A stretch of 64,000 nucleotides of DNA. It comes from Porphyrobacter sp. SLTP (GTDB lineage Bacteria > Pseudomonadota > Alphaproteobacteria > Sphingomonadales > Sphingomonadaceae). A program made the position numbers and the translations under genes. Positions 10,973 to 16,518 of the stretch are shown piece by piece. How positions within the stretch are numbered: position 1 is the stretch's first letter; every line of letters starts with the position of its first letter. The notes under the pieces are model-generated. The model worked only from the letters and a program-made list of their open reading frames with translations, had not been told where the DNA came from and searched no databases. Location: assembly GCF_009905735.1 (NCBI RefSeq), contig NZ_JAAALE010000011.1, forward strand, positions 1 to 64,000. The letters are read 5' to 3'.

Positions 10973-11018
10973 GCCGTCATAACGTGGCGCCAATGCGCCG
11001 CCCATCAGGACCGTACCC

Positions 11019-11633
11019 ATGACCGAGATTACCCGCGTTCCGATCAAGCCTGTGGCCAAGGGCTCGCTCACCAAGCTGTGGATCGGGGTCGCGCTTGCGA
11101 TCGCGGTGGGCGGCGGGCTTGCCTGGTCGGCCGTGCCGCGCGGGCTTGACCTTGATGTCGAAGTCGCAGGCACGGGCAAGACTGCGGCCAAGGGCGATGT
11201 CGTGTTCGTGAAATACAAGGGCAAGCTGGCTGCCGATGGCACGGTGTTCGACGAATCGCAGAACATCCCGCTGCCGGTCCAGGGCCTGTTCCCCGAAGGC
11301 AATCCCTTCCCGGTTGAAGATGGCGCGACCATTCCGGGCTTCTTCCAGGGGCTTCAGCAGATGCAGAAGGGCGGCAAGTACACGCTCTTCATCCCGGCCG
11401 ATCTCGCTTACGGTGCAACGCCGCCTCCGGGTACGCCGATCCCGCCCAACGCCGATCTCGAATTCGAGATCGAGGTGATGGACATCATGAGCCGCGCGAC
11501 CTTTGACCGCAATCTGCAGATCCTCCAGCAGACGATGCAGCAGCAGATGGGCGCTGCCCCGGGCGGCGCTCCCGGTGGTGCAGCGCCGGGCGGCGCGCCA
11601 GAGGGTGCGCCTCCGGTGGCTCCGGGCCAGTAA
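11019..11633 (+). CDS. Membrane-anchored FKBP-type peptidyl-prolyl isomerase
   Basis: Cis-trans prolyl isomerase predicted to sit on the periplasmic face of the inner membrane. It has a short cytoplasmic N-terminus, one transmembrane helix at about residues 20-38, then an FKBP domain (about 45-150). The domain is recognised from [21 protein letters not shown]-like spacing, VIPGF-equivalent [12 protein letters not shown], and [23 protein letters not shown]. The C-terminal 30 residues are a Gly/Ala/Pro repeat ([17 protein letters not shown]) likely to be disordered. It precedes gatC by 14 nt and may be cotranscribed with gatCAB. Confidence 0.92.
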
Positions 11634-11647
11634 GGGGCGGACGCGCA

Positions 11648-11950
11648 ATGTCGGTCGACAAGGCAACCGTTGCCAAAATCGCCTCGCTGGCGCGCATCCG
11701 CATGGATGACGCCGCGCTGGAACAGATGGTGCCGGAATTGAACGGCATCCTGCAATGGGTCGAGCAATTGGGCGAGGTGGACGTGACCGGGATCGAGCCG
11801 ATGGCGGCCGTGATCCCCAACACGCTGCGTCTGCGCGCTGACGTGATCGACGCCGATCCGCTGACCGGCGGCGGCAGGCAGGGCGATATCCTCGCCAACG
11901 CGCCTGCGGCCGAGCACGGGTTCTTCGGCGTGCCCAAGGTGATCGAGTAG
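11648..11950 (+). CDS. gatC: Asp-tRNA(Asn)/Glu-tRNA(Gln) amidotransferase subunit C
   Basis: Small stabilising subunit of the GatCAB amidotransferase, which converts misacylated Glu-tRNA-Gln and/or Asp-tRNA-Asn to the correct forms. The 100-aa protein has the family pattern [14 protein letters not shown] near the N-terminus, [19 protein letters not shown] in the middle, LRADV, and the C-terminal [18 protein letters not shown], which wraps around GatA. It is separated from gatA by about 120 bp containing an inverted repeat. Confidence 0.96.
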
Positions 11951-11969
11951 GAAAGGGCCTTCACCCTTT

Positions 11970-12060
11970 CCGTTCGGGCTGAGCTTGTCGAAGCCCCGCA
12001 TTTCTTTTCTGCTCTTGCGCCCGAAGAAGGACAGCCCTTCGACAGGCTCAGGGCGAACGG
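11970..12060. repeat. Sphingomonad-type inverted repeat pair between gatC and gatA
   Basis: Two copies of a roughly 26-nt repeat face each other. The first is at 11970-11996 (core GGCTGAGCTTGTCGAAGCC). The second, inverted, is at about 12034-12060 (core CTTCGACAGGCTCAGGGCGA). They differ at a few positions and are separated by about 37 nt, so the transcript could form a long hairpin. This sequence family is a common REP-like repeat in alphaproteobacterial genomes. Confidence 0.75.
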
Positions 12061-12069
12061 TTGGAAACA

Positions 12070-13551
12070 ATGACTGACCTAACTCAACTCGGTGTAAAAG
12101 ACATTCGGGACGGCGTGCGCGCCGGGGACTTCACCGCGCGCGAAGTCGCCGAAAGCTTCAACGCTGCCGTCGCTGCGGCGGCGAGCCTCAATGCCTTCAT
12201 CGTCACCACCCCCGATCATGCGCTGGCCGCCGCCGATAAGGTCGACGCCGCGCGCGCTGCGGGCGAGCCGCTGGGCGCAATGGCGGGCGTGCCGATCGGC
12301 ATGAAGGATCTGTTCGCCACCCACGGCGTGCAGACCACTGCGGCGAGCCACATCCTCGAAGGCTTCACCCCCCGCTACGAATCCACCGTCAGCCAGAAGC
12401 TGTGGGACGCGGGCGCGGGGATGCTGGGCAAGCTCAACCTAGACCAGTTCGCGATGGGCTCGTCCAACGAGACCAGCTATTTCGGCAACGTCACCTCACC
12501 GTGGAAGAAAGCCGGGTCGAACGCCGCGATGAGCCCCGGCGGCTCTTCGGGCGGTTCGTCCTCGGCGGTCGCCGCGCGGATTGCGCCTGCTGCGACCGGA
12601 ACCGACACCGGCGGCTCGATCCGCCAGCCCGCCGCCTTCACCGGCATCTGCGGGATCAAGCCGACCTATGGCCGCTGCTCACGCTGGGGCATCGTCGCCT
12701 TCGCGTCGTCGCTCGATCAGGCAGGCCCGATGGCCCGCAGCGTCGAGGATTGCGCGATCATGCTCGGCGCGATGGCGGGGTTTGATCCCAAGGATTCGAC
12801 CAGCCTCCAGATGGACGTGCCCGACTGGGAGGCCGCTTTGAACAGCGATCTGCGCGGCAAGAAGGTCGGCATTCCGCGCGAATACCGGATGGAGGGCACC
12901 GATCAGGCGATCCTCGATTCGTGGGAGCAGGGCAAGGCATGGCTCAAGGACGCGGGCGCGGAAATCGTCGACGTCTCGCTGCCGCACACCAAATATGCGC
13001 TACCCGCCTATTACATCGTCGCCCCGGCTGAGGCTTCGAGCAACCTCGCCCGCTATGACGGGGTGCGTTACGGCCTGCGCGATCTGCCCGAGGGCGTCGG
13101 CCTGCAGGACATGTACGCCGCCACCCGCGCCGCCGGGTTCGGCGACGAGGTCAAGCGCCGCATCCTGATCGGCACCTATGTGCTCTCGGCCGGTTTCTAC
13201 GACGCCTATTACACGCAGGCGCAGAAGGTCCGTGCGCTCGTCGCCCGCGATTTCGAGCGCGCCTTCGAGCAGTGCGATGTGATCCTCGCTCCGACCACGC
13301 CGACGGCGAGCTTCCCGCTGGGTTCGATGAATGAAGACCCGCTGACGATGTATCTCAACGACGTCTTCGCCGTGCCCGCCTCGCTCGCTGGCCTGCCTGC
13401 GATGAGCGTGCCCGCGACGATCAACGCTGATGGCCTGCCGCTCGGCCTCCAGCTGGTCGGCCGCCCGTTCGACGAGCAGGGCGTGCTCAATGCAGGCCTC
13501 GCCATCCAGCAACGGGCAGGCTTCACCGCCAAGCCGGAGAAGTGGTGGTGA
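12070..13551 (+). CDS. gatA: Asp-tRNA(Asn)/Glu-tRNA(Gln) amidotransferase subunit A
   Basis: Glutaminase subunit of GatCAB, an amidase-signature enzyme that releases ammonia for transamidation of misacylated tRNAs. The Ser-cisSer-Lys catalytic triad is visible: Lys in [10 protein letters not shown] (about residue 79), cis-Ser in [13 protein letters not shown], and the nucleophilic Ser in [14 protein letters not shown]. It is 493 aa, the usual length. The ATG at 12070 is preferred to an in-frame TTG 9 nt upstream. Its TGA overlaps the GTG of a 52-codon membrane ORF, which in turn overlaps gatB. Confidence 0.97.
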
Positions 13552-13706
13552 ACGCCGATCTGCCGCTGTGGATTGCCGGACTGGCAATCGCCGCTGCGGT
13601 GCCGGTGACCTTCATGGTCGCCAATTGGGTCAGAAAACACGTCGATCATGGCGAGATGCGCTTCGGGCCGGATGGCAAGGTGATCGAGGACGAGGACAAG
13701 CAATGA
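13548..13706 (+). CDS. 52-aa membrane micro-protein between gatA and gatB
   Basis: Small ORF starting with GTG at 13548 and ending TGA at 13706. The start overlaps the gatA stop (GTGA) and its stop overlaps the gatB ATG (ATGA), which is strong evidence for translational coupling. The product has one hydrophobic helix (about residues 6-28, [18 protein letters not shown]), then a polar, acidic tail ending EDEDKQ, so it is a predicted single-pass membrane protein with a cytoplasmic or periplasmic tail. I do not recognise a family. It is not a known GatCAB component; the membrane helix is surprising within a soluble enzyme operon. Confidence 0.72.
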
Positions 13707-15199
13707 GCAACTACCGCATTCAGGGTGCTACGGGTGAATGGGAGGTCGTGATCGGCCTTGAAGTCCACGCGCAGGTGACGTCGCAGTCCAAGCTGTTCTC
13801 GGGCTCGGCCACCGCGTTCGGCGCCGAGCCGAATTCGCAGGTCAGCCTGGTCGATGCCGCGATGCCGGGGATGCTGCCCGTGCCCAACGCCGAGTGCATC
13901 CGTCAGGCGGTGCGCACCGGCATGGCGATTGACGCGCAGATCAATGCGTGGAGCCGTTTCGACCGCAAGAACTACTTCTACGCCGACTTGCCGCAGGGCT
14001 ACCAGATCAGCCAGCTTTATCATCCGATTGTCGGCGAAGGTTCACTCCTGATCGAGGCGGATGAGAAGGCGGGCATCCCCGAAGACAAGATCATCGGCAT
14101 CGAGCGCATCCATGTCGAGCAGGACGCGGGCAAGCTGATGCATGATCAGCACCCGACCATGTCCTATGTCGACTTGAACCGTTCGGGCGTGGCGCTGATG
14201 GAAATCGTCAGCCGTCCCGACATGGCTTCGCCCGCTGAAGCAGGGGCTTACCTGCGCAAGCTGCGCGCGATCCTGCGCTATGTCGGTTCGTGCGACGGCA
14301 ACATGGAAGAAGGCTCGATGCGCGCTGACGTGAACGTCTCTGTGCGCCGCGTAGGCGAGGGGCTGGGCACCCGCACCGAGACCAAGAACGTCAATTCGGT
14401 GCGCTTCGTGATGCAGGCGATCGAGCATGAGGCGATGCGGCAGGTCGATGTGATCGAAAGCGGCGGAAAGATCGTGCAGGAAACCCGCCTGTTCGATCCG
14501 GGCACCGGGACGACCCGCACCATGCGCAGCAAGGAAGACGCGCACGATTACCGCTACTTCCCCGATCCCGACCTTTTGCCGCTGGTGCTGGAAGACGACT
14601 TCCTCGCCGAATGCCGCGCCAGCTTGCCCGAACTCCCGGACGCCAAGCGCAAGCGTTACGTCGAGGTTCTGGGCCTCACGCCGTATAACGCGCGCGAGCT
14701 GACGGCCGAGGTCGAGACCTTTGCGCGGTTCGAGACGCTGCTGGCCGAAACCGCCAAGGTTACGGCCAAGGACGAAGCCAAGGTCGCCACGCAGGTCGCC
14801 AACTGGTCACTCTCGGTTGCGCCGGGTGTGATCAAGGCGCTGGGCGATGACGCCGACCTCGCCAACGCCACGGCGGCTGCACAGGCGAGCATCCTCGCAA
14901 TGGCCGACAAGGGTGAGATCAGTGGCGGTCAGGCCAAGGAAATCTTCGAAATCGTCCTCAAGACCGGCCGCGATCCCGCTGAAATCGCGGAGGCCGAAGG
15001 GCTGAAGCAGGTCAGCGACACCGGCGCGATCGAAGCTGCGGTCGACGCGATCATCGCCGCCAATGCCGACAAGGTCGAACAATATCGCGGCGGCAAGGAA
15101 GCGCTGTTCGGCTTCTTCGTCGGCCAGACGATGAAGGCGATGCAGGGCAAGGCCAATCCGGGCGTGGTGAACCAGCTGCTCAAGGACAAGCTCGGCTAG
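13703..15199 (+). CDS. gatB: Asp-tRNA(Asn)/Glu-tRNA(Gln) amidotransferase subunit B
   Basis: Kinase/transamidase subunit of GatCAB, 498 aa. It begins [24 protein letters not shown], and the family-typical [50 protein letters not shown] and [11 protein letters not shown] motifs follow. The YqeY-like tail domain ends [19 protein letters not shown]. The start at 13703 is fixed by the ATGA overlap with the small ORF upstream; the frame is open further 5', but that would overlap gatA. The gene completes the gatCAB unit. Confidence 0.97.
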
Positions 15200-15216
15200 A
15201 CCCCGGAGCCAAGGCT

Positions 15217-15978
15217 TTGCGGCCCGTCACGCTCTATTTCCACGGGTTGCCGGGATCGGCGGCGGAGCTTTTGAACTTCGGCCCGGAAATCGCCGCGCAG
15301 GTCGGGCATTTCCATGTCGTCGATCGCTCCGCAGCGCCGGGTGAAGGGTACTTCTCGCAGCTTGCCGCAAGGATCGCTGCGACATTTCCCGATGAGCCGC
15401 TGCGCCTCGTCGGCTTCTCGCTGGGCGCGGCGGCGGCCTTGCAGGTGGCTCCGCATTTGGGGGCCAGCGTCGAGCGGATCGACCTCGTCTCGCCCGCCGC
15501 GCCGCTCCAATTGGGCGACTTTCTGCCCGGAATGGCAGGCGCGCCCGTGTTCCGCGCGGCGCTGTCGGGGCGGATGCCGTTCGCGGCGCTCACGTTCATG
15601 CAGGCGCAGGTCGCCCGGATTGCTCCCGCAAAGATGGCCGAAGCGCTGATGGCGAAGGCGAGCGGGGCTGACCGCGCGCTGGCCGGCGATCCACAGTTCA
15701 TCGCGGGGCTTGCGCAATCGCTGCGCCAAAGCCTGCTGGCTCAGCGCGCCGCCTATACGGCCGAAATCCGCGCCTATGTCGCCGATTGGACGAGAGTGCT
15801 TGTCGAGGTCCATCAGCCGGTCACGATCTGGCAGGGCAGTGAGGATGACTGGACCCCGCCTGCGATGGCCGAGGCACTCGCCGCGCAGCTGCCCGGTGCG
15901 CCAGCCATGCAGATGCAGCCCGGCTTCTCGCACTTCTCGACCTTGCGCGCCTATCTCGCAGCAGAGCCGCGCCCATGA
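15217..15978 (+). CDS. Alpha/beta-hydrolase family protein
   Basis: 253-aa predicted alpha/beta hydrolase. The N-terminal LYFHGLPGSAAEL forms the oxyanion-hole HG motif, the nucleophile elbow is GFSLGAAAA (Ser near residue 69), and a late His lies in GFSHFSTLRAY. An acidic residue is available in GSEDDWTP. The start is TTG with GGAG 8 nt upstream; no ATG lies close by in frame. It begins 17 nt after gatB and its end overlaps the trmL start, so it may belong to the gat transcript. Substrate unknown. Confidence 0.78.
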   Translation: MRPVTLYFHGLPGSAAELLNFGPEIAAQVGHFHVVDRSAAPGEGYFSQLAARIAATFPDEPLRLVGFSLGAAAALQVAPHLGASVERIDLVSPAAPLQLGDFLPGMAGAPVFRAALSGRMPFAALTFMQAQVARIAPAKMAEALMAKASGADRALAGDPQFIAGLAQSLRQSLLAQRAAYTAEIRAYVADWTRVLVEVHQPVTIWQGSEDDWTPPAMAEALAAQLPGAPAMQMQPGFSHFSTLRAYLAAEPRP

Positions 15979-16430
15979 CCGCCATCGTACTCGTCCAACC
16001 CGAAATCCCCGGCAACACCGGCTCGGTCGGGCGCACCTGCGTGGCCCTGGGGATGGAGCTGATCCTGATCCACCCGCTGGGCTTCGAGATCACCGATACG
16101 CGGGTCAAGCGCGCGGGGCTGGACTACTGGCCGCATGTGCACCTCACCGAATATGCGAGCTGGGACGCGTTCCTCGCCGCGCGCACCCCGCGCGCCGATC
16201 AGCTATTCCTGTTCGAGGAATTTGGCGCGAAGAGCTTCTACGAGCCGGACTACCCGGATGATGCGATGCTGGTGTTCGGCAAGGAGACCACAGGCATCCC
16301 CAAACCCATCATCGACCGCCACGCCGACCGCCTGGTCAAGCTGCCGATGCGCTCGGACGTGATCCGGTCATTGAACCTCGCCAACACGGTGACAGCCGCG
16401 GCCTATCAGGCGCTGCGGGGCAAGCTGTAA
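15975..16430 (+). CDS. trmL: tRNA (cytidine(34)-2'-O)-methyltransferase
   Basis: SPOUT-class methyltransferase that modifies the wobble position of tRNA-Leu isoacceptors, using S-adenosylmethionine. The 151-aa protein starts with IVLVQPEIPGNTGSVGRTC and has the trefoil-knot motifs LVFGKETTGIP and MRSDVIRSLNLANTV near the C-terminus, all characteristic of TrmL/YibK. It overlaps the preceding hydrolase by 4 nt. Convergent with the exporter operon, with 88 bp between, in which I see no clear terminator. Confidence 0.93.
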   Translation: MTAIVLVQPEIPGNTGSVGRTCVALGMELILIHPLGFEITDTRVKRAGLDYWPHVHLTEYASWDAFLAARTPRADQLFLFEEFGAKSFYEPDYPDDAMLVFGKETTGIPKPIIDRHADRLVKLPMRSDVIRSLNLANTVTAAAYQALRGKL

Positions 16431-16518
16431 TCCGACTATTGTTGTTCGGGCCTAAGGGTCACGCAGGGCCGCTGGGTCGCAGGCGCCCGCGTATTTCACT
16501 TCACGGTGCGGTAGGCGG

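Follow-up and report, generated by a model that had tools for sequence, protein, structure and literature searches.

A conserved, predicted membrane microprotein encoded between gatA and gatB in Erythrobacteraceae

Between gatA and gatB, the 64,000-nt stretch of DNA analysed here (the window) carries a small reading frame that is conserved in relatives, is under purifying selection, is linked to gat genes and overlaps both of its neighbors, at a junction whose contents vary. We consider it fairly probable that this frame encodes an independent single-pass inner-membrane microprotein with a working tail, a passenger in the slot between the two genes that is translated by reinitiation and hands ribosomes on to gatB where it is docked there. 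The arrangement of the genes points to the relay of ribosomes, and selection points to a separate role for the peptide, which would act independently of GatCAB catalysis. With it, a small essential operon gains a protein family that is conserved and unmatched in the libraries searched.

The microprotein and its relatives

The features of the window on which the analysis draws are as follows.

11648–11950, + strand: gatC, a 100-aa ORF
12070–13551, + strand: gatA, 493 aa, ending in Lys-Trp-Trp-TGA
13542–13551, + strand: GTGGTGGTGA, three in-frame GTG start candidates overlapping the gatA end
13548–13706, + strand: gene of the predicted membrane microprotein, 52 aa (profile matches and dN/dS)
13557–13640, + strand: predicted transmembrane helix, codons 4–31 (AlphaFold2 model)
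13650–13685, + strand: conserved hairpin-like tail, codons 35–46 (family pattern GE.[RQ]F, then Gly)
13703–13706, + strand: ATGA shared by the stop of the microprotein frame and the start of gatB (sequence)
13703–15199, + strand: gatB, 498 aa

An earlier note on this DNA had described an ORF at 13548–13706 with 4-nt overlaps at the gatA stop and the gatB start, and with one hydrophobic segment and an acidic tail in its 52-aa product. That description was accurate throughout: the frame has 52 codons, its GTG (13548–13550) overlaps the gatA stop TGA (13549–13551), it closes with a TGA that overlaps the ATG of gatB at 13703, and segment and tail are both present. Because gatA ends TGGTGGTGA, GTG codons at 13542, 13545 and 13548 are all candidate starts in this frame, and the product would be 52–54 aa long. 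Upstream of gatA, gatC was found in all 75 relatives examined (tblastn, window GatC as query).

One membrane helix followed by a short cytosolic tail is the predicted layout of the protein. An AlphaFold2 model built from 21 aligned members (mean pLDDT 83.7, pTM 0.47) places a helix at residues 4–31, with block means of 97 and 95 at residues 11–30 and lower confidence in the tail, where two short bridges, RF and VI, are modeled around PDGK. By the positive-inside rule, the more positive flank of a membrane helix lies on the cytoplasmic side. Mean net charge is -0.60 in the first 5 residues and +1.08 in the 10 residues before GE (higher in the latter in 49 of 63 rows), so the tail is predicted to lie in the cytoplasm and the N-terminus outside.

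The tail is also where conservation is concentrated. All 21 aligned members have G35, E36 and F39. In the codon alignment a Gly follows GE.[RQ]F in 58 of 63 rows; since rows entered that alignment by way of the GE motif, the motif count is partly circular, and one relative, L127, lacks the strict pattern and was excluded. The Gly is lost in five aligned copies (L019, L032, L033, L037 and L045). Since the helix drifts while the start of the tail and the Gly stay, we take the tail to be the likely working part. By eye, L044 and L127 encode two-helix proteins with the same GEARF tail, which suggests a modular tail that has been combined with more than one kind of membrane anchor.

Searching with one sequence gave too low a figure for the spread of the gene (21 of 61 genomes), and a profile of 25 members raised the count to 72 of 81 genomes of the window's genus, or 60 of the 67 that are of high quality; the nine same-genus genomes with no profile match include seven of high quality. 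Across the family, 25 of 249 sampled genomes have a match, of which three are weak and have no gat gene nearby; these three tail-only matches (L124–L126) were treated as probable chance. Matches came from two of 289 genomes in a class-wide sample, both of the window's genus, and a plasmid search returned one weak partial match, in Iodobacter (E 0.3). Among sampled gatA-gatB junctions of the window's GTDB family the gene is present in 36 of 173, comprising 27 of the 75 selected for similarity in GatA and 9 of the 98 selected for similarity in GatB. When mapped onto a tree of GatA from 75 relatives, its presence needs at least 10 gains or losses (shuffled mean 22.3), and it is missing from all 16 rows with the names Novosphingobium, Sphingorhabdus or Sphingopyxis. 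Within this sampling, then, the gene is confined to the Erythrobacteraceae lineage, where it has been lost or replaced in places. In two Pelagerythrobacter relatives, L041 and L051, the gatA-gatB gap is only 13–14 nt, and the bases at the start of gatB (GACGATGAG) resemble the final codons of the lost microprotein.

In kind, the product is familiar, a small single-pass membrane protein; as a family it is conserved and has no significant match in Pfam, NCBIfam or PDB. The window protein hit no family in Pfam and none in NCBIfam, the best Pfam and NCBIfam matches among the 25 members (E 0.011 and 0.013) each involved one member, and the best PDB match had E 0.36, which is not significant. CcoS/FixS, a protein of cbb3 oxidase maturation, is alike in layout only, with about 50 aa, one N-terminal helix and a short acidic tail (PF03597). 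The window genome, however, has its own FixS elsewhere (C1:281053), hhalign against 16 FixS proteins from 20 loci gave 4.7% probability over 21 helix columns only, and PF03597 is absent from the seven Pfam families matched by any of the 25 members at E up to 1. We rejected this candidate.

The gatA-gatB junction as a slot

Compared with gatC-gatA, the gatA-gatB junction is peculiar in the size and variety of its inserts. The comparison began from 237 loci, of which 10 without a gatB match and 6 without a same-strand upstream gatA were dropped, leaving 221; removal of loci selected for the ORF and of duplicates left 173, the window's own junction included. Resemblance to the window's GatA (75) or to the N-terminus of its GatB (98) decided which junctions were drawn, so the 173 are not a random sample of the family, and the 1.5-kb flanks with which loci were fetched could conceal very long spacers. 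Among them, 43 have a gatA-gatB gap of at most 20 nt and 85 a gap above 260 nt. Of 144 gatC-gatA junctions, 90 have a gap of at most 20 nt and 54 a longer one, none of them above 260 nt; in the subset with 3-kb flanks the gap never exceeds 249 nt (75 of 75). Elsewhere in Alphaproteobacteria the gatA-gatB gap is at most 20 nt in 21 of 25 loci with gatA in reach, in a comparison that took 29 of the best-matching loci of 113 genomes, one of them from the window's own family.

The inserts are diverse. Outside the microprotein family, 88 ORFs of at least 30 aa are docked on the gatA stop. BLAST at E 1e-4 groups them into 54 clusters, an upper figure, as 20 of the 88 have only 30–59 aa and some may be chance frames. 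The L044 ORF, one of the 88, has the GEARF tail and probably belongs among the relatives of the microprotein family. Occupants of the slot also include repeat-like inserts, seven proteins that look like acyltransferases (by reading, not by family search) and a family of 100–126-aa proteins with 11 members, 10 of which have a predicted membrane segment. This last family (L034, L036, L047, L048, L054, L056 and five more) has a YPEYRD-like stretch and docks on the gatA stop, and 8 of the 11 bridge to gatB too; a Pfam scan of two of them gave nothing above cut-off. In two Novosphingobium loci, L080 and L084, an AbrB-like and PIN-like pair, VapBC-like by eye, lies between gatA and gatB, and its second ORF overlaps the gatB start.

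A related situation has been reported in another order. In Caulobacter, Brevundimonas and Phenylobacterium, genes called X, Y and Z lie between gatA and gatB (PMC4221894), so that the same gat junction is interrupted by lineage-specific genes that vary among close relatives. The two cases differ in that no microprotein family figures in the available portion of PMC4221894, where gatA and gatB of Caulobacter K31 are reported to have different promoters. Our comparison with X, Y and Z is by description, as that portion gives no details of their sequence, size or overlaps.

Tentatively, and at somewhat less than even odds, we suggest that the sphingomonad gatA-gatB junction is a ready-made cradle, in which the GEARF microprotein is one occupant that became fixed and conserved while the other docked ORFs are mostly younger. 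A stop-free insert of the right length would be born translated and coupled here, because both ends are held constant by constraint on the proteins: the Trp-Trp-stop end of gatA gives GTG starts and the ATGA of gatB gives a stop. This neighbor-supplied start and stop is a more unusual point than the small single-pass membrane protein itself. The slot also lends itself as a natural comparison series for the effects of inserted ORFs on expression of a downstream subunit gene. Within the window, the gatC-gatA spacer holds two facing REP-like core copies at 11979–12051 (CTGAGCTTGTCGAA ... TTCGACAGGCTCAG); no inverted repeat was reported in 11940–12080.

GatCAB and the relay of ribosomes

The earlier note had also proposed that a membrane protein within this operon could tether or regulate GatCAB. 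The first half of that idea is supported, in that a conserved, predicted single-pass membrane protein is present, and the specific link to GatCAB has genomic position as its sole backing. In such a scheme the cytosolic tail would bind GatA or GatB and bring the amidotransferase (or the transamidosome) to the membrane, or adjust it. Consistent with this, gat genes adjoin 22 of the 25 family matches (gatA and gatB both in reach in 18, only gatB in 3, only gatA in 1) and stand beside all 28 further same-genus loci, of 74 matches listed, with both genes in 27; the tail is conserved and predicted to be cytosolic; and production of the microprotein would keep pace with that of GatA and GatB. Apart from the weak tail-only matches L124–L126, no member of the family turned up at a distance from gat genes, as a functional link to GatCAB predicts, but a gene inherited in place would show equal linkage. 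The slot, moreover, holds unrelated ORFs in sister species, nine of 81 same-genus genomes have no profile match, the GatA tree demands its 10 or more gains or losses, and other inserts can stand between the microprotein and either of its gat neighbors, or on both sides of it (33 of 64 junctions). An accessory factor would be expected wherever gatCAB is kept, and the 36 of 173 family junctions with the gene depart from this. Because the slot accepts many unrelated genes, position is weak evidence for joint work with GatCAB, and since position is also what bears on physical association, we regard tethering as possible and, on balance, unlikely. Among the literature matches listed, no paper was pertinent to the microprotein or to a link between gat and the membrane, those on gat genes with membrane association being judged by title and the opening of the abstract.

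Under the reading that we prefer, the gat operon would instead have a permissive slot in which the gene rides as a passenger. The conserved tail, with its GE.[RQ]F and the Gly-Lys-like turn after it, would most likely bind one cytosolic partner at the membrane, and it is through this tail that the peptide would have a conserved role of its own there. Ribosomes finishing gatA would reinitiate at the overlapping GTG and translate the microprotein; where the 3' overlap is present, as it is in the window, a second round of termination and reinitiation would pass them to gatB, and a docked ORF would in this manner keep gatB coupled to gatA across the spacer. We propose the relay because, without an ORF across it, an insert at this junction would break the coupling of gatB to gatA.

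Several observations bear on such coupling. Both junctions in the window, with their 4-nt overlaps, lie within the -8 to +10 nt criterion for coupled pairs. According to the available portion of PMC10666635, coupling by termination-reinitiation is nearly gone at distances of about 20 nt, and short gene overlaps are enriched among subunits of heteromeric complexes. Pairs of that type share the 4-nt stop-start overlaps seen here, and differ in that here an unrelated ORF stands between two subunit genes and coupling is read from arrangement (PMC10666635). Where the gatA-gatB spacer is 101–420 nt long, a single ORF is docked at both ends in 53 of 61 cases, against about 9.1 expected from shuffles. 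In control spacers of 101–160 nt between gatC and gatA, however, 37 of 46 are bridged, against 13.7 expected from shuffles, and bridging, which is thus not peculiar to the gatA-gatB junction, may partly reflect open-frame repeats and general operon compaction. We rejected the idea that the bridging of gatC-gatA spacers proves relays to be under selection, because on visual inspection the core of the repeat seems to leave more than one frame open. In favor of the relay, SD-like matches before gatB with a docked ORF do not surpass those of shuffled upstream sequence of mixed loci (3.59 against 3.6); the value is 4.16 where gatA and gatB adjoin. In Caulobacter K31 the report of different promoters for gatA and gatB (PMC4221894, available portion) implies that coupling is not universally kept.

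In its extreme form, the relay could be the whole story, with an ORF that only carries ribosomes from gatA to gatB and a peptide without a role. Double docking in 31 of 64 junctions fits this, as do the inserts, repeat-like by eye, that docked ORFs span in L091, L164, L173, L195, L200, L212 and L224. Mycobacterial interspersed repetitive units (MIRUs), inserts described as carrying an ORF proposed to relay translation, offer a precedent (PMC12548453, available portion). MIRUs, though, are repetitive sequences, whereas the microprotein is a single-locus gene under purifying selection; protein-level searches of its own genome for MIRU-like copies gave one profile match and, with the tail as query, one further match at E 1.3. 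For a pure relay an open frame would suffice, whatever its sequence, yet dN/dS is 0.23 and the tail motif is kept even in copies undocked from gatB. A relay alone leaves the tail unexplained, because among aligned undocked copies GE.[RQ]F is present in 25 of 25 and the subsequent Gly in 23 of 25; some of these copies lie 0.4–2.1 kb away (L027, L039, L043, L044, L052, L074 and L116). Two repeat-like inserts, L049 and L233, are unbridged, and the 33 of 64 junctions without one or both dockings mean that relay, absent in about half, cannot be the sole role. We judge a pure relay to be quite improbable.

Selection on the reading frame and the two overlaps

As grounds on which the gene could be refuted, the earlier note had named an unconserved frame and near-neutral ratios, and neither was found. 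The frame is kept, and median dN/dS is 0.228 among 33 unique Erythrobacter-type sequences (476 of 528 pairs scorable, none at or above 1), compared with 1.35 and 1.8 when the same DNA is read in its two shifted frames. A first-pass pooled pN/pS, from 20 sequences, was higher than this median at 0.351 (bootstrap 0.199–0.473). For the flanking segments of gatA and gatB, dN/dS is 0.09 and 0.11; the microprotein evolves faster than its neighbors, yet is clearly constrained.

Constraint could in principle act on a conserved RNA or a gatB leader element instead of on a protein, and in the docked forms the tail does lie directly upstream of gatB, where adjacency could constrain nucleotides. Variation is nonetheless greatest at third codon positions (fractions of non-majority letters 0.117, 0.081 and 0.227 at positions 1, 2 and 3), and the motif residues use varied synonymous codons (E as 32 GAG and 31 GAA; R as 28 CGC, 17 CGG and 15 CGT), which argues that selection acts on the protein. 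The motif also survives in copies undocked from gatB, and a search of Rfam with E up to 0.1 returned a single sub-threshold match, outside the ORF, and none above gathering score in 11000–16500. An RNA or leader element is a very unlikely explanation.

The two overlaps tell less than the earlier note had supposed in calling double coupling unlikely by chance. An exact GTGA...ATGA ORF was remade in 1429 of 5000 dinucleotide shuffles of the 151-nt window spacer (61.6% GC, length fixed), and with length left free the rate would be about a third of this. The chance argument fails because the Trp-Trp-stop end of GatA spells in-frame GTG starts and the ATGA of gatB supplies a stop: across the 173 sampled junctions, GatA ends in Trp-Trp in 158, the last bases of gatA are GTGGTGA in 89, and gatB begins with ATGA or GTGA in 167. 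Stop-start overlaps can thus come from the conserved ends of neighbors, and neither a gene nor a functional link should be read from an overlap alone. Of the frame and the two overlaps, whose conservation the earlier note had proposed to check, the frame is conserved, and the overlaps occur together in just 31 of 64 distinct junctions with the gene (gatA only in 13, gatB only in 8, neither in 12; two copies, L006 and L022, come from one contig). Double overlap is common, yet not required; the evidence for a gene is conservation, and the conclusion that there is a gene was right where the statement about chance was wrong. A chance open frame in GC-rich spacer DNA, with no effect by translation, can reproduce the double overlap as the shuffles do, but is scarcely credible against the conserved frame, the purifying selection, the frame-shift controls and the presence in 72 of 81 genomes.

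Individual same-genus copies depart from the usual form. Two, in G763 and G026, have an internal stop codon and are possibly decaying, and G779 has two tandem profile matches, the second weaker and directly adjoining the first.
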